From a virus, in IMG/VR virus record IMGVR_UViG_3300042541_003418, positions 1 through 22,125 of that record: a stretch of DNA of 22,125 bases; one strand, given 5' to 3'. A program made the translations under genes and the position numbers. A model generated the notes under the pieces. It did no database searches and had not been told where the DNA came from. It saw nothing but the letters and a program-made list of their open reading frames with translations. The number at the start of each line of letters is the position of its first letter. Position 1 is the first letter of the stretch. Positions 4,374 through 13,307 of this stretch are shown here, one piece after another.

Positions 4374-7040
4374 TCAAGCGGCTGGCGCGCTGGACATTGC
4401 GGCGGGTGTTTCGGCTAGACCTGTCTCGGTCTTCTCCCCAGCCTCTTTAAGCTCAGACAGCTTCATGTAGATCTTGGCCGTCTGAACGCCGATTTCCTGA
4501 GCGAATATGCATGAGCCTTCCTTCTTGACGCCCTTGACAATCACCATATCCATCTCCTCCGGCAATCGCCCATTTGCCACAAAGATCTGATCAATGGTTT
4601 TGTTGAAGAAGCGGATGGAGATTTCCCCTGTTTCATCCGTGAGGGTGAATCGGAACATGTCATTCCCAGCTTTGCTCTTAGACTTGATCGGCTCTTTCAC
4701 AAACCCGATGAGACGGACCTTATCCTCCTGTTTGGCTGCCTCGGCATCAGCTACGGACATCAGGCCGTCAACCTCTTCCCCAAAGATTCCGCGCAGGGTT
4801 TCCGAGTAGGAGTAGCCGAGGATGGTGCGCTCGTAGAAGTAATTGGCCAGTCGCTCATTGCGACGATTCATCTCCCAGATCTCCTTGTACTTCAGATATT
4901 TCTTCTTGATGGTATCGAAACGGGTGGCGCGACTGAACAGCAGTTTACCCTTCTCGTCTTTGTTGTCTCTCAGATAGATAATGGCTTTAAGCACATCGTG
5001 ATTGATCTCAGGCTTGCCACTCAGAGTGATACAGATAGCTTTTTCCTTGTCAGTCAGTAGATTCCACGTGCATAGCTCAAGCACCAGCCGCGAGCGCGAC
5101 TCGCCATATCCCTCGATACAGCCCGCCTGAATCAAGGCGGAGCCAATGCCGATATTGAGCCCGGCGTTTTTGATAGCTTGGAAAATCTGAAATTTCGACA
5201 CAGTCTTTTTGAAGTCATCGCCACTCTTCACCACGTCTATGCGAAATGCGTCCAGCTTGCTCACAGACTTGTCGGATACCCCGCGAATCATGCTGAGGCC
5301 AAAACGAATGGATTTATCGTCTACGATGGTGAAATCGATAGAGGATTTCACTAGGTGTGGCGGCAAAAGAGTGAAGCCTCGCGAGCGCATTTCTTTTTCG
5401 ATCTGAGCGATGACCGTGTGGCCGTCCGCCTCGTTCTTAGACATGCGAAGAAGAGCCCAGTAGAACTGGATGGGGTGATTAGCCTTGAGGTAGAGGGTCC
5501 ATGCGACGATGATGGCGTAACAGGCGCTGTGAGATTTGTTGAAAGAGTAGCCGCCGGACTCTTCAGCGATTTTCAGAAGCAGGTCAACGATCTCGGGAGG
5601 ATGGCTATTCTTCTCGCACACCTCTGCAATCTTGGCCTTGACCTCGGGAACCTTGTCCACGAGTTTCTTGCCGAGGACCTTTCGCGCGCCTTCGGCCTCT
5701 TCTGCGGTCATGCCGACCTTGACCAACATGGCCAGATACTGCTCTTGAAAAAGACACACTCCGCCCGTTGGCCTTAGAATGTCATCGATCAGCGGGTGAA
5801 CCGACTTGAACTCCCCGGTCTTCAGGTAGTTGTTGTAGGTGTCCAAATAGGCAAAGGCACCCGGGCGAGCAATAGCGAGAAGCGCGCTAAGCTGTTCAAA
5901 GTTTTTCGGCGCGATCTTGGCGGCAGCATTGCCCTGCGCGAAAGTCTCCAACTGGAACACTCCATAGCGATAGCGGAAGTCCTGAAGGTAGGCGTAGATG
6001 GAGGGGTGGTGAACGTCGATCTTATCGCGGTCCAGCCCAATCAGTTTGCACGCGTCATGGACCACGTCTAGCGTGCGTAGCCCGAGGATATCCATCTTGA
6101 TGGAAATCTCTTGGGCCGAGTACATGTCGAAGCCCGTGACCAGCTCTTTGTCCGAGGACAGCTGGAGGGGCATCAGCTGATTGATCTTGCCATTCGTGAT
6201 GATAAGCGCGCTGGCGTGCTGGCCCTCGCCGCGATTCAGACCGGATAGACCCATGGAGATCTCGGCTGTTTCGGGATGAGATTCAGCCCACTCCTTGAGT
6301 CGCACATTGGCCTTATCCTCGTTATCAGACAGCGCATCTTCGATCTCTTGAGGGATGCCGAACTCGACCTCGACCAGCCCGCTCACCTCATTAGCCTGAT
6401 CCTCTGTGCCGCCCTCGAACGTCTTGAGAACGTCTTTGAGGAGGATCTTGGAGCTAAACGTGGTAGTGGTCAGCAGTTTGGAGGTCTGGCCGGGATAACG
6501 TGAATGGAGGTAGCTGAGGATTTCCGAGCGGCGGTAGAAGCTGAAGTCACAATCGATATCGGGCACCAGCCCACCGTCGATGTAGGTCACCCCGTCTATG
6601 ACCGTCTTCTTGGCGCGTGCCTTGGAGAGGAAGCGCGAAAAGAACAGGCCGTGCTCAATGGGGTCCAGATTCGTGATGCCCGTCAGATAGGACACGAGGG
6701 ATGAGCCGACAGAGCCGCGACCCGGGCCGCGCGGAATGCTGGACTCATCCGCAAAACGGCAAATGTCCCACACCATCACGATGTAGTTGGTGAAGCCGAG
6801 AAAGTCGATCATGTCCAGCTCAAACGTGACGCGCTCTCCATAGACCTTACGCTGGTCTGGCGAAAGACGCTTCAGCTTGTCCTTAAACCCGACGCGACAC
6901 AGCTGCTTGAGGAACTCAGTGTTATTGCAACCCGGCTTCGCGCCGACTGCCGCGCGCTGAGCGTCAGATATGTCAATAGAGGGCAGCACCACGCCTTGGA
7001 AAGGCAGCTTGGTTTGTGGCTGGATATTGCGGAGGATCAT
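4374..7040 (-). CDS. dnaE: DNA polymerase III alpha (DnaE-type) catalytic core
   Basis: This is the replicative polymerase core of the C family, 888 residues against about 1100-1160 for a full DnaE. Visible landmarks are PGRGS at 106-110, the palm aspartates in PDIDCDF (Asp161 and Asp163), the third catalytic Asp317 in KMDILG, the conserved ESGGYSFNKSHSACYA segment near residues 487-502, and a C-terminal OB-fold-like segment beginning at VRLIGFVKEP. The N-terminal PHP domain normally fused here is absent. The protein begins at the point where a DnaE continues after PHP (TKLPFQGVVLP), and the PHP part is a separate upstream gene. The proofreading exonuclease ends 16 bases upstream. The extreme C-terminal tau-binding region seems reduced. 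ATG is used without a clear ribosome-binding site. Confidence 0.95.
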   Translation of the reverse strand: MILRNIQPQTKLPFQGVVLPSIDISDAQRAAVGAKPGCNNTEFLKQLCRVGFKDKLKRLSPDQRKVYGERVTFELDMIDFLGFTNYIVMVWDICRFADESSIPRGPGRGSVGSSLVSYLTGITNLDPIEHGLFFSRFLSKARAKKTVIDGVTYIDGGLVPDIDCDFSFYRRSEILSYLHSRYPGQTSKLLTTTTFSSKILLKDVLKTFEGGTEDQANEVSGLVEVEFGIPQEIEDALSDNEDKANVRLKEWAESHPETAEISMGLSGLNRGEGQHASALIITNGKINQLMPLQLSSDKELVTGFDMYSAQEISIKMDILGLRTLDVVHDACKLIGLDRDKIDVHHPSIYAYLQDFRYRYGVFQLETFAQGNAAAKIAPKNFEQLSALLAIARPGAFAYLDTYNNYLKTGEFKSVHPLIDDILRPTGGVCLFQEQYLAMLVKVGMTAEEAEGARKVLGKKLVDKVPEVKAKIAEVCEKNSHPPEIVDLLLKIAEESGGYSFNKSHSACYAIIVAWTLYLKANHPIQFYWALLRMSKNEADGHTVIAQIEKEMRSRGFTLLPPHLVKSSIDFTIVDDKSIRFGLSMIRGVSDKSVSKLDAFRIDVVKSGDDFKKTVSKFQIFQAIKNAGLNIGIGSALIQAGCIEGYGESRSRLVLELCTWNLLTDKEKAICITLSGKPEINHDVLKAIIYLRDNKDEKGKLLFSRATRFDTIKKKYLKYKEIWEMNRRNERLANYFYERTILGYSYSETLRGIFGEEVDGLMSVADAEAAKQEDKVRLIGFVKEPIKSKSKAGNDMFRFTLTDETGEISIRFFNKTIDQIFVANGRLPEEMDMVIVKGVKKEGSCIFAQEIGVQTAKIYMKLSELKEAGEKTETGLAETPAAMSSAPAA

Positions 7041-7056
7041 GCGTGGTGGTTTGGTC

Positions 7057-7692
7057 TCAAATCTCCATCAGATTGGCCAGTTTCCAGAGAACCTGAGCGT
7101 TCAATCCAAGGTCATAGAGACCGTCATGGAGCCTACCCTCTTCAAACGGAATGTCAAGCTCCTTCGCCATGAGAGAGAGTCCGGTCTTCACGCCTTTCTG
7201 GTGAGCGTCTGACACCTTATGGAACCACGCGAGGAGATTGTCGCGATCAGGCTTCCAGCCCATTTTGAACGCGCGAGCGAGCAGATGAGTGTCAATCGTG
7301 CGGTGGAGAGGCGACCAGTCGGGTTTTCTGCCCAAAGCGCGCCGCCAGAGTTGGCACACGGGCAAATCGAAGCCGATCAGATTGTGTCCCCCGATCAAAT
7401 AGTCTTCATCCCGCGTGTATTGCTCTAGAATCTCCAGCACGTATTCGGGGTCATCCCCGTTGTCTACCCAGTGCTGTTGGAACCTAGTGATAGCCGCAGC
7501 GTCCTTGCCCATCTTGTAGTCGGGCCACTTGATGTAGTGGTTGTGCGACCCGAGCACCTTGCCGCGCTGCATGATCACGATGGAGCATTGGAACGGGAGG
7601 TTGTCCTGCTGGATGTTTAGTCGCTGGGTTTCCAAATCGAAAAGAGCAATCTTTTTGTCAGAGAAACGGAGGAGTTCTGCGCCGATGCTCAT
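7057..7692 (-). CDS. DnaQ-like 3'-5' proofreading exonuclease
   Basis: A DEDDh exonuclease of 211 residues. ExoI is FDLET (Asp19, Glu21), ExoII is HNLIGFDL (Asn104, Asp109), and ExoIII is HDGLYD (His189, Asp194), so all catalytic residues are present. It would remove mispaired 3' ends with two metal ions during phage DNA synthesis. It lies directly before the polymerase core and its ATG overlaps the previous stop (ATGA), so it is most likely the epsilon-equivalent of the split polymerase. No clamp-binding motif was obvious. A general DNA or RNA exonuclease is less likely given the position. Confidence 0.9.
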   Translation of the reverse strand: MSIGAELLRFSDKKIALFDLETQRLNIQQDNLPFQCSIVIMQRGKVLGSHNHYIKWPDYKMGKDAAAITRFQQHWVDNGDDPEYVLEILEQYTRDEDYLIGGHNLIGFDLPVCQLWRRALGRKPDWSPLHRTIDTHLLARAFKMGWKPDRDNLLAWFHKVSDAHQKGVKTGLSLMAKELDIPFEEGRLHDGLYDLGLNAQVLWKLANLMEI

Positions 7693-7976
7693 TTTGACTC
7701 CTCCACGATCTCGGCATCAAACTCCTCGGTCAGACACCATTCACCATCCCATCGCTCTTCGCCAACCTGTCCTCCGCCTTCGCTGGCGGGATTCTCAATC
7801 ACGCGGATTCCTCGCGCGCCTAGACTGCCGTCCTTCAGTGCCTGCTCCCAAGCGGTGAGCGTGATTCGTCGCAGGTCTTCTGGGGCGTTACAGTCGTAGT
7901 CATAGACCTCGGTCCCGGCCTTGAACCAAGTGTCGGGCTTGGCGACCAGCTTGACGTATTGTATGGGGGTGCTCAT
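7689..7976 (-). CDS. Hypothetical protein within the polymerase operon, 95 residues
   Basis: I start this gene at the ATG at 7976, where ATGA overlaps the stop of the PHP-like gene; the longer upstream frame would cover coding sequence of that gene. Residues 1-30 look like a compact beta-rich module (YVKLVAKPDTWFKAGTEVYDY). A helix follows (about 38-50), then a Gly/Glu-rich acidic tail ending EEFDAEIVEESK. The family is not recognised. Because it lies between the PHP-like and exonuclease genes and is coupled to both by 4-base overlaps, it is a candidate small subunit of the split polymerase. That role is inference from position. Confidence 0.7.
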   Translation of the reverse strand: MSTPIQYVKLVAKPDTWFKAGTEVYDYDCNAPEDLRRITLTAWEQALKDGSLGARGIRVIENPASEGGGQVGEERWDGEWCLTEEFDAEIVEESK

Positions 7977-8794
7977 GTAGTGGAAACGGGTTGGGCCATG
8001 GGCAGCGCGGCTAGGATCTCCTGATAGGCCTCCCACGAGAACTCTCGGGACACGAGGCCGTCGTTTGGTTTGTCCCAGTCCTTGCGATTCAAAATGCAGC
8101 GCCAAACCTGAAACTGTTTCGCGTCATCCCGCTTCTTGTAGTAGATAGACTTCACGGGCTGGACCTCCAGACCCTGCGTCTCGGCATAGCGCGCGACTAC
8201 CGGCTCAATCAACTGGTCTGTAGCCAGCTCCTGCCCGATCTCCTTGAGGAGCAGCGGCTTGACCCCCTCTGGAAACTGCGGGACGATGGCCGCAAACGTA
8301 AGAGTATTGCGCGCTAGGAAGCTGGAGTAGTAGGGCAACGAGAGAATCAGATCCTTGTGCCACATGGCGCAAAGGGTCTTCCAGTCAATCCTCGGGGTGT
8401 AGTAGAACCCGTCATTGGCGGCGACGCTGAAGATATTGATCAGGGCCTGATAGTCTGCCGCGCCGTCACCGCTCATCCAGATGATGACCTTGGACTCGGT
8501 CTTGAGCGAGGCATCAGACTTGTCCGCGAGATTCTCACAGACGACGAGTTTGAGTCCGAGCACCAGCTGACAGCCTACGTCCTTGAGGTTCTTGTGGCCG
8601 ACCATGAAGTCCACCCAGTTAGATGCGACGACGTGAATCTGTTTGAGATTGTGCTCCTTGACAATATCACAAAGAGAGGCCGCCCCCTTGACACGTCCGC
8701 TCTTCTTAGCGGCACCAGCCTTTTCGACCGTGAAAATGCCGCCTTGTTTCAGAGAACTAGAGACGTTAAAGAGTGGGATGGGAATCTCGGGCAT
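7973..8794 (-). CDS. Stand-alone PHP-like domain of DnaE, metal site lost
   Basis: The 273 residues follow the order of the N-terminal part of a bacterial DnaE. The best landmark is GFYYTPRIDW at 129-138, matching the FYYKPRIDW hallmark. LCDIVKEHNLKQIHVVASNW (41-60) matches the strand ending in the ALTDHGNL motif, and VLGLKLVV (78-85) matches IIGVELYV. The C-terminal part (about 212-260) matches the DAxAxxxLLCI region just before the polymerase palm. The PHP metal ligands appear replaced: HxHSDYS reads as FNVSSS, TDHG as SNWV, and the GVE glutamate as Lys. It is probably a structural, inactive PHP module that joins the DnaE core in trans. It is preceded by a TTGACA promoter candidate and starts the polymerase operon. 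Confidence 0.75.
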   Translation of the reverse strand: MPEIPIPLFNVSSSLKQGGIFTVEKAGAAKKSGRVKGAASLCDIVKEHNLKQIHVVASNWVDFMVGHKNLKDVGCQLVLGLKLVVCENLADKSDASLKTESKVIIWMSGDGAADYQALINIFSVAANDGFYYTPRIDWKTLCAMWHKDLILSLPYYSSFLARNTLTFAAIVPQFPEGVKPLLLKEIGQELATDQLIEPVVARYAETQGLEVQPVKSIYYKKRDDAKQFQVWRCILNRKDWDKPNDGLVSREFSWEAYQEILAALPMAQPVSTT

Positions 8795-8840: not shown

Positions 8841-9887
8841 TCAATTCGGGTTGCGAGGGCGCTCAGTCTCTGGATTGTACCAGAATGTGCAGCCCGTATA
8901 CCGCTTCTTCACCAACTCTTCGTCCTCCAACGGCTTCAGTTGTCGCTTCACGTCCGAGAGGATTTGCTCTTCGGTCAGCTCTGTGTCTTTGAGGTGCCGC
9001 GAGATGCGCGCAGAGCGGATCTTGCCCGCTTTGTCGGTGATGGTCCAGTAGTCAAACGGGTCCTTCAGTGAGCAGACCCTCATGCAGAACCCCTCGTCCT
9101 TGTTACACTTGGGGTTATCCAGCGCGCTCTTCTCGTTCAGCGCGTTGATCGCGCGGTTGATTTCTCTGAGATAGCTGATGAAGCCGTCAAGCTGGGAGTT
9201 GCTCAGCGGCTCGACGCGCTGAAGCCACTGTTTGCCCGGGGTGCGCTTAGTCGGGCCGTGACGAAGCATGATGAATTCTACAGCGGCTGGCAGCTTGAAC
9301 TCGTGACGAATTGCAAGCTGGTAGAAGACGGACTGGATGTTCCACACCATCTCTTCGTCTGAAAAGACTTTTTTCTGAGTTTTGTAGTCTGTGCATTTTG
9401 CACGATCAGTGTAAAGCGCTACGCGATCCATGAATCCCTTGATCTGGAAGTCGCCGTAGTCGATCTCGAATGGGTGCTCAGGTTCCAGCTGTTTTATGGC
9501 ACCTTCGTCAAAGAAGTCATAGTCCAGCGCGACCATCAGGCACTTGTCTAGATCGGCCAAAGTCTTGGCGTCTAGATCGGGGTTATGGTAGCAGTAAATC
9601 TTGATCAGTCGCGCGATGGCAGCGGATGCATAGGCCGAACGTGCGGCCACGACCGATGCGTGATGCTTGCGGTGGCGGGGGTTCTGGAGGCATTCCAAAA
9701 TGATGTGGGCCAAACTGCCAAGCTTGGTCGCGGGCCATGTCCAATCGGGAACCTTCAGGAAACGGGTCTGATAGAACAGCCATGAGCAGTCCAAGAACCC
9801 CTTTACAGAGGATGCAGACAGGGTCACTTTATTCTTGGGCTTGGTAGATGTCGCGGCTGGCGTGCTGGGGGATTCGATGAAATTCAT
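8841..9887 (-). CDS. PD-(D/E)XK nuclease, RecB/Cas4-like, with four Cys
   Basis: The 348-residue product matches the RecB/AddB/Cas4 nuclease fold. GSLAH has the motif-I His61, IKGFMD has Asp154, CTDYKTQKK has Asp167 and Lys169, and QSVFYQ supplies the motif-IV Gln (about 185-190). Cys34 near the N terminus, together with Cys261, Cys268 and Cys272, has the split 1+3 layout that binds a 4Fe-4S cluster in AddB and Cas4. A single-strand or end-processing exonuclease for recombination is likely. It lies upstream of the polymerase genes and downstream of primase and small genes in the same direction. No adjacent cas genes or arrays are present, so a CRISPR role is not indicated. The N-terminal 20 residues are a low-complexity tail. 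Confidence 0.85.
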   Translation of the reverse strand: MNFIESPSTPAATSTKPKNKVTLSASSVKGFLDCSWLFYQTRFLKVPDWTWPATKLGSLAHIILECLQNPRHRKHHASVVAARSAYASAAIARLIKIYCYHNPDLDAKTLADLDKCLMVALDYDFFDEGAIKQLEPEHPFEIDYGDFQIKGFMDRVALYTDRAKCTDYKTQKKVFSDEEMVWNIQSVFYQLAIRHEFKLPAAVEFIMLRHGPTKRTPGKQWLQRVEPLSNSQLDGFISYLREINRAINALNEKSALDNPKCNKDEGFCMRVCSLKDPFDYWTITDKAGKIRSARISRHLKDTELTEEQILSDVKRQLKPLEDEELVKKRYTGCTFWYNPETERPRNPN

Positions 9888-12078: not shown

Positions 12079-12252
12079 ATGAGCAAATTCAAGAAGAACG
12101 ACGGGTGGGTTTCATTCAAACTGCCCTTGGACACGGACGCGAAGCTGCGAGAGATCGCGGCAGACACAGGACTAAAGATGACCACGATTGTGGTCAAGGG
12201 GATTGAGGCGGAATACGCAAAATGGAAGATGGGGAAGGAGGGGGTGAAATGA
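12079..12252 (+). CDS. Small ribbon-helix-helix-like DNA-binding protein, 57 residues
   Basis: This short gene begins MSKFKKNDGWVSFKLPLD. A strand (about 10-15) is followed by a helix (DTDAKLREIAADTG, 18-31), a turn and a second helix (MTTIVVKGIEAEYAKWK, 34-50), which is the layout of Arc/CopG-type regulators that dimerise through the strand. It may be an auto-repressor of the plus-strand island, with the paired GTTCTAGA sites upstream as candidate operators. Its stop overlaps the ATG of the endonuclease gene as ATGA, so the two are translated together. It is one of only two plus-strand genes here. Confidence 0.65.
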   Translation: MSKFKKNDGWVSFKLPLDTDAKLREIAADTGLKMTTIVVKGIEAEYAKWKMGKEGVK

Positions 12253-13307
12253 GCGCGAGATGCAACTCGTGGACCGAGACCGAAGACGAGACTCTGAAGA
12301 GGCTCTATTTGAACGAGGGCAAAGTGATCAGAGAGGTCGCTCTTGAGATGGGTCGAACCATGAGCAGCGTGTCAAATCGGATCAATGTGATCGGCGCTAT
12401 TAAAACGGGGGCTAGGAAGCGATGGTCAAAAGAAGAGCAGCAGACCCTCAACAGATGGTTTGAGGAGGGCAAGACCGACCAAGAGATTGGTGACCTCCTC
12501 GGGAGAGATGCGATGGCCGTCAAAACCCGTCGCAGATACTCGAAAATGCTAAAACAGGATTGCACTCGGTGGGAGAAGAGCCAGATTGAGACGCTTGTTC
12601 AGCTGGTTGAGCAAGGGCAAACCAAAGAGGAGATCGCCGATACCATGGGCATGACGCTCGGTCGGGTGAAGAACAAGATCAAGATGCTCGGCATCATCAG
12701 CAGACGCAGATACGAGAAGTGGCCAGCGGAGGAGAAGAGTCGGCTTGTGGAGCTTCTGGACTCTGGACTGTCTCTTGACGAGATCTCCGCTATGATGAGT
12801 CGCCCCCACGAGGGCATCATCTCGAAATGCAAACAGCTTCGAGTGGCCCATCGATACGACTCTATCCGCAGGTTTCTGAACGCGAAACAGAATGCCAAGA
12901 TAGACTGTCTGGAAGAGCGTGTGAAATATGTGCTGAGAAACGCCAAATCGAGAGCTGGGATCAAAGGAATGGCTTTTGACCTGACCGTGGAGGGGATTAA
13001 ATCCATCTATGCCTCCCAGAAAGGGCTATGCTTCTACAGCGGGCTCCCCATGACCTTCAAAACGAACGATTCCGCGCTGATGAGCGTTGACCGCATCGAT
13101 TCCAACGGAGGCTACACACTTGACAACGTGGTCCTTACGGCATGGGCCGTAAATGCGATGAAGCAGGATTTCGATGTAGAGACATTCTTGTCGATGGCCA
13201 GACGCGTATCCCTCCAAGCCAATATCGTCCGGGGACAGATCAAAGAACGAAGCCTTCTCCGTCAGCCGCCTCCGCAGCCACAGGCTTCTGCACGTTCACT
13301 CCCGTAA
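12249..13307 (+). CDS. HNH endonuclease with four tandem Myb/SANT-like repeats
   Basis: I place the start at 12249, where ATGA overlaps the previous stop and GGAGG lies a few bases upstream; this gives 352 residues. Four consecutive repeats of about 45-50 residues begin at the conserved Trp in SWTETED (about 7), RWSKEEQ (59), RWEKSQI (about 108) and KWPAEEK (158). Each ends with a recognition-helix-like segment (MSSVSNRI, AVKTRRRY, GRVKNKIK, GIISKCKQ). The C-terminal part is an HNH nuclease: CFYSGLPM (from 261), VDRID (280-284), GYTLDN (288-293), then NAMKQ (from 302). This layout is typical of homing endonucleases and phage-encoded free-standing HNH genes. The last 68 bases overlap the helicase gene on the other strand. 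Confidence 0.85.
   Translation: MSARCNSWTETEDETLKRLYLNEGKVIREVALEMGRTMSSVSNRINVIGAIKTGARKRWSKEEQQTLNRWFEEGKTDQEIGDLLGRDAMAVKTRRRYSKMLKQDCTRWEKSQIETLVQLVEQGQTKEEIADTMGMTLGRVKNKIKMLGIISRRRYEKWPAEEKSRLVELLDSGLSLDEISAMMSRPHEGIISKCKQLRVAHRYDSIRRFLNAKQNAKIDCLEERVKYVLRNAKSRAGIKGMAFDLTVEGIKSIYASQKGLCFYSGLPMTFKTNDSALMSVDRIDSNGGYTLDNVVLTAWAVNAMKQDFDVETFLSMARRVSLQANIVRGQIKERSLLRQPPPQPQASARSLP

Follow-up and report, generated by a model that had tools for sequence, protein, structure and literature searches.

A C-family DNA polymerase III encoded as separate PHP, exonuclease and core proteins in a clade of large uncultured phages

We analysed a 22,125-base virus record in IMG/VR (IMGVR_UViG_3300042541_003418; this whole stretch is the window), a large-phage fragment that encodes a DNA polymerase III (Pol III) alpha in separate genes. 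On the minus strand, a 273-amino-acid (aa) protein (positions 7973..8794) corresponds to the DnaE-type PHP domain, an 888-aa protein (4374..7040) is the Pol III alpha catalytic core without PHP, and a 211-aa DEDDh (DnaQ-like) 3'-5' exonuclease (7057..7692) is encoded between them along with a small 95-aa gene; these open reading frames (ORFs) are as an earlier note on this DNA had read them. We consider it likely that they belong to a C-family phage replicase in which an inactive PHP protein is a separate scaffold subunit, assembling non-covalently with the core and the exonuclease. Their encoding in separate genes suggests that the working enzyme is put together from parts, most naturally without a covalent bond between them.

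The PHP domain and the polymerase core are separate proteins

By itself, the window's 273-aa protein matched Pfam PHP under the cut-off (E = 0.0028), the NCBIfam DnaE N-termini at 3.3e-7 and, in PHROGs, positions 85-256 of phrog_405, the DnaE N-terminus, at 1.1e-8. Across 40 members of its family, 36 matched PF02811 at 0.01 or better, and the NCBIfam scan returned Pol III alpha/PolC families exclusively (PRK05673 in 28/40). An hhalign comparison of the 40 members with 11 fused polymerases extended across DnaE residues 8-250 (E = 5.2e-14, for a single comparison), and an AlphaFold2 model from 40 sequences (pLDDT 85) gave 18 Foldseek matches in the PDB at E 0.001 or better, all of them Pol III alpha; rows outside Pol III, with E above 0.04, were disregarded. 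VIA-align Z scores of the model were 14.9-18.3 to Pol III alpha/PolC structures, with 16-18 to the solved DnaE PHP domains, and at most 10.5 to other PHP enzymes. On this model, the 273-aa protein is predicted to have the polymerase-type (DnaE/PolC) PHP fold. The earlier note had taken it for the N-terminal PHP of DnaE and had named a lack of structural similarity to PHP as a reason to abandon that idea; both the profile alignment and the Z scores to DnaE PHP bear the identification out.

That an unrelated PHP-family enzyme was instead recruited beside the polymerase would fit the pairwise identity of 10-20% to solved DnaE PHP domains and the sub-threshold Pfam score of the window protein. We regard this as very improbable, as the NCBIfam matches are all to Pol III alpha, the structural Z is 15-18 for DnaE/PolC PHP but does not exceed 10.5 for other PHP enzymes, and the alignment spans the DnaE PHP end to end.

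The 888-aa protein is a C-family Pol III alpha of the DnaE type with no PHP in its chain. It comprises palm, thumb, fingers, HhH and OB fold, and matched phrog_405 at positions 322-1082 (1.5e-142) and, in Pfam, the palm/NTPase family PF07733 (3.7e-54), the finger domain (8.2e-24) and HhH (3.2e-9). Among 30 cores, PF07733 and the finger domain were present in every one and HhH in 29. The catalytic aspartates are D163 and D165, which we take to be equivalent to E. coli D401/D403, and D317. The first two lie in the motif PDIDCDF (core residues 160-166; 6543..6563, minus strand), where D161 and D163 are conserved in 30/30 cores and D165 in 28/30; the third, in KMDILGL (6090..6092, minus strand), is present in 30/30. 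The possibility that a complete PHP lies elsewhere in the core, raised by the earlier note, was checked with PF02811, which matched 0/30 cores. Each of 24 large contigs contained exactly one PF07733 match; PF02811 matched in 16 of them (12 over the curated cut-off), once each and in an ORF of 222-284 aa near the core, and gave no match in the remaining 8.

Some variation and lineage-specific sequence was seen in the cores. The core at L011:9487-12036 has Asn for the third aspartate of PDxDxD (CDADLN), a change found in 2/30 cores that puts the activity of these polymerases in doubt, and at L063:5956-9003 the core lies in two ORFs of 200 and 780 aa with ~100 nucleotides (nt) between them. Directly before the catalytic PDxDxD motif, residues ~138-157 of the window core form a family-conserved insertion relative to DnaE (RAKK...YxxG). 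Past the OB fold, residues 856-865 carry a motif conserved in most members, KIYxKLxDLK, a possible partner-binding tail.

The three-gene arrangement is uniform within its clade

Searches of IMG/VR, starting from the PHP protein and going on to alignments of PHP and of the core, yielded 74 loci on 72 contigs (L010-L083) and 76 loci on 75 further contigs (L177-L252); the window core alone, as a single-protein query of viral contigs, found nothing, its peptide patterns probably being too specific. PHP, exonuclease and core genes followed each other in this order along a single strand in 72/74 and 73/76 loci, corresponding to 142 of 147 distinct contigs, and the five exceptions (L012, L015, L187, L188 and L235) are all cut at contig ends. 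No fused PHP-core was present among the 147 clade contigs. Because split cores seeded the search, these counts describe uniformity inside the clade and not frequency among phages, and many contigs are closely related (30 to 42 representatives at a core difference of at least 15%). One scan contained at least 535 related stretches.

The distance between PHP and exonuclease genes was within 100 nt in 60/72 loci and that between exonuclease and core genes in 63/72, larger gaps often being occupied by other small genes. No homologue of the 95-aa gene was found in the first 74 sister loci, which makes it an accessory of the window phage, outside the conserved unit. phrog_2, presumably the terminase large subunit, was matched in 12/12 large contigs. 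When genome contigs were scanned with the PHP alignment, 0/40 stretches encoded a relative, and hence no provirus or host link was obtained.

The break falls at the PHP-to-palm connector and carries no detectable intein

Profile comparison of both proteins with DnaE, as the earlier note had proposed, placed the PHP protein at DnaE residues 8-250 and the start of the core at residue 281, and a model of the core without PHP (pLDDT 85) aligned to solved DnaE chains from residue ~263-301 on. DnaE residues 250-281 form the PHP-to-palm connector, and these ~30 residues are absent from both split parts. Most family PHP proteins end near the connector start; the window PHP extends ~16 residues further in unrelated sequence. 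The statement that the 273-aa protein ends where the core begins therefore holds for the order of the parts and not as an exact abutment, since the connector residues are missing.

With E values of up to 1 allowed, the window proteins matched no intein family in Pfam or NCBIfam, whose models are weak for such elements (see below), and the break has no spare length that could hold an intein, in line with the earlier note's view of it. There was also no homing endonuclease at the break: the 95-aa gene matched nothing in Pfam, and the other intervening gene is the DEDDh exonuclease. In cyanobacterial split DnaE, the parts are joined by a split intein. Two NCBIfam halves, which we take to be this cyanobacterial DnaE, place its break between the positions of window core residues 342 and 499, so that the parallel drawn in the earlier note is apt for a DnaE in two genes and otherwise loose, the cyanobacterial break lying elsewhere in the protein. 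Intein-split DnaE sequences are also mentioned in PMC3919608.

The closest relative of the window core (62% core identity; L177:6001-9126, IMGVR_UViG_3300036770_006434) has a ~134-aa in-frame insert between FNK and SHS that starts with CLDPCTTV and ends with VVVSN before Ser. By eye this is a putative mini-intein, weakly supported by the intein families, whose models scored it at only 0.1, 0.2 and 0.005. If so, inteins enter the polymerase of the split clade, though not at the PHP break.

We also weighed whether the split could be an artefact, either a frameshift or misassembly or a break by a mobile element or intein that is rejoined in the product. Homing endonucleases do interrupt some Pol III genes of phages (KLEB27-3, phage G and CB457P2), and the insert in L177 shows that an intein-like element can be found in a near relative. 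However, conservation of the split across the clade rules out sequencing error, and rejoining is hard to reconcile with an identical arrangement in 142/147 contigs of one clade, with the other genes that intervene, with the lack of any intein or endonuclease family match in the window proteins and with the ~30 connector residues missing from both parts. An origin of this kind appears extremely unlikely.

The PHP protein has lost its metal ligands beside an intact exonuclease

Using the canonical ligand set taken from PMC3666897 and PMC12926913, we found that the window PHP protein retains 0/9 metal ligands, all nine being replaced, and that these columns are nearly all replaced across the 40 family members. 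Judged from these sequences, the separate PHP protein is apparently without metal catalysis. The exonuclease, with D19, E21, D109, H189 and D194 as its motif residues, matched RNase_T at 5e-5, phrog_192 at 9.2e-12 and the NCBIfam PolC exonuclease region at 8.9e-9, and the DEDDh motif is intact in 68/68 exonucleases. It had no match in GenBank phages at 1e-3. The exonuclease of PolC is the closest to the one encoded here; in PolC, the exonuclease sits inside PHP, in one chain.

According to Barros et al. (PMC3666897), loss of PHP ligands accompanies a separate proofreading exonuclease, and PHP stabilises the polymerase overall; an intact exonuclease motif together with a ligand-less PHP is the pairing reported there for E. 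coli. Following this logic we propose the same role here, in trans. The PHP domain would have split off a DnaE-type chain to become its own subunit and would have given up metal catalysis. It would most likely pack non-covalently at the site that the N-terminal PHP occupies in DnaE, and, once docked, it could stabilise the core and provide a seat from which the DEDDh exonuclease, encoded by its own gene, proofreads in trans. Binding of PHP to the core, binding of the exonuclease to PHP and use of the enzyme in phage replication are what we infer from this arrangement.

Co-inheritance favours a shared complex, with points on the other side

Distance matrices of the PHP proteins and cores were correlated (r 0.92-0.93), with 0/2000 permutations as high, and the partial r between PHP and core given the neighbouring helicase was 0.73. 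This correlation supports a shared complex and is not proof of one. A- or B-family polymerases (PF00476, PF00136) were detected in 0/14 large contigs, and the sliding clamp PF02768 gave a single match in 14 contigs, under the cut-off; both absences are provisional because contig completeness is not stated. A regular-expression search of the 30 cores for a clamp-type motif revealed none shared at one common position. As no A- or B-family polymerase was detected in the 14 contigs, in contrast to jumbo phages whose split Pol III is minimal (PMC7824862), the three-gene Pol III is probably the replicase of the phage genome.

Several observations weigh against an assembled three-part enzyme. The neighbouring helicase also correlates with the core (r 0.90), so co-inheritance is to be expected among neighbouring phage genes. 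In 16/72 loci the space between two neighbouring genes of the trio is at least 100 nt, and tight coupling is therefore not universal. The C-terminal tail of E. coli epsilon is long; in 68/68 exonucleases of the clade only 17 or 18 residues follow the last motif, and an E. coli-type tail is not present. Because this tail binds PHP in E. coli, as stated in PMC3666897, docking of the clade's exonuclease on PHP, if any, must differ. Finally, Pol III forms without any PHP occur in jumbo phages, according to PMC7824862, and PHP may therefore be dispensable.

These PHP-less forms also bear on a further explanation, in which the PHP protein shares its ancestry with the polymerase domain and is now free-standing with another task (e.g., as a regulator or a binder of host factors) while the core works alone. 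The divergence of the PHP protein, with every canonical metal ligand lost, would suit such a change of task, as would locus L055, where the PHP gene is 3.4 kb away from the exonuclease. On the other hand, PHP stays with polymerase and exonuclease in 142/147 contigs and is never absent given sufficient flanks, its invariant residues run from near the N-terminus through to the C-terminus, and its rates follow those of the core beyond what the helicase accounts for. We therefore consider a free-standing task unlikely, and favour the PHP protein as a scaffold subunit of the replicase.

Relation to fused and other divided Pol III

To place the split cores, we built a tree that combined 30 of them with 11 fused ones. 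All split rows fall on one side of a long branch with 100/100 support; the tree is unrooted and several fused rows are long-branched. This long, fully supported branch, whose root relative to fused DnaE is unsettled, bears on a more speculative origin for the separate PHP, as a relic of, or return to, a modular state with PHP, exonuclease and core as distinct subunits, and not a late fission. Swapping or releasing a PHP that acts in trans could then allow a change of proofreading or polymerase partner at the fork. We think this rather improbable, and a PHP domain that split off a DnaE-type chain to serve as a scaffold subunit remains our preferred account.

Searched against GenBank phages (INPHARED, August 2025), the window DNA had no near match, and no close relative was found, core matches being at most ~33% identical among the matches listed. 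The PHP protein matched, among the matches listed, annotated fused polymerases or unannotated contigs. In 19 phage-filed polymerase regions that we inspected (4 of them bacterial-looking), PHP was fused to the core or the break lay inside the polymerase part, as called from gene lengths and match positions; two of the regions could not be placed, namely Gekk3-15, which is oddly annotated and sits where its record ends, and CB457P2, which endonuclease genes interrupt. Four records (L002-L005; MT837297, MT836213, MT838831 and OQ572403) were rejected as phage comparators given the bacterial-chromosome look around dnaE. These 'phage' records contain lpx-, rnhB- and pfk-like ORFs, as read from translations, and were retained as DnaE examples.

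A scan with a mainly fused alignment covered the 80 of 590 relatives most similar to its fused query, so that the absence of split forms among them is biased and gives no frequency. In 76/81 loci the core ORF was 950 aa or more; the five shorter ones comprise L128, which runs off the contig end, three with a frame break (L133, L134 and L138) and one fused short ORF. The phage Pol III genes at L134:5992-9319 and L138:547-3880 are of the fused type and have their frame break within the PHP domain, which may reflect a frameshift or a different way of dividing the protein.

Fused DnaE-type Pol III alpha (E. coli and Thermus; phages Dattran, MTATph1, BUCTxx99 and MA9V-3) has the same PHP fold, palm, fingers, HhH, OB and catalytic aspartates, but in the four phages it is one chain of ~1070-1185 aa, whereas here there are two genes and the connector is missing. 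Cellulophaga phage phiST, Rossellomorea phage phiT1 and Bacillus phages KLEB27-3 and G use two or more genes per Pol III alpha, as here; unlike here, their break is in the palm or fingers as judged from gene lengths and match positions, the N-terminal gene is longer than the PHP domain and, in KLEB27-3 and G, the break carries a homing endonuclease. Group 2.2 jumbo phages encode a minimal Pol III alpha in separate proteins without an intein, cut between the nucleotide-binding and template-binding subdomains, with no other Pol III domains and beside a family B polymerase (Iyer et al., 2021; PMC7824862). The window polymerase is likewise divided without an intein, but its core is whole (fingers, HhH, OB), it comes with a PHP gene and we found no B polymerase. 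Siphoviridae sp. ctLqe90 possibly has a separate PHP adjoining the core: two of its proteins, with consecutive accessions, are annotated as 'PHP domain-containing protein' (175 aa) and 'DNA polymerase III, alpha subunit' (536 aa), and both are far shorter than the parts here. Split phage Pol III is therefore already known in the form of endonuclease breaks, palm breaks and the PHP-less minimal form, and a PHP/palm split is seemingly unreported, in that we found no earlier report in the open-access literature searched.

A natural clade with a separate, apparently dead PHP offers a direct test of the role of PHP by adding or omitting the subunit, with no mutation of a folded enzyme. It also identifies a large uncultured phage group in which, across the contigs searched, we detected no polymerase other than this three-gene form.

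Gene layout and neighbouring genes

All genes of the cluster are on the minus strand. First in transcription order, ahead of the 273-aa gene, is a PD-(D/E)XK nuclease gene (8841-9887). The 95-aa gene (7689..7976), assigned to no family, lies between the PHP and exonuclease genes; its start overlaps the end of the PHP gene in an ATGA (7973..7976), and its end overlaps the exonuclease start in another (7689..7692). The earlier note had described all of these genes as coupled, which fits the two ATGA junctions and does not extend to that between exonuclease and core, a 16-nt gap without overlap. The same region also codes for a DnaB-like helicase, a primase, a UvsX-like recombinase and a thymidylate synthase, which marks it as a phage replication module. 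On the opposite strand to these replication genes, positions 12222-13307 (plus strand) encode a 361-aa protein with Myb/GcrA/sigma-4-like helix-turn-helix repeats and an endonuclease VII-like part.

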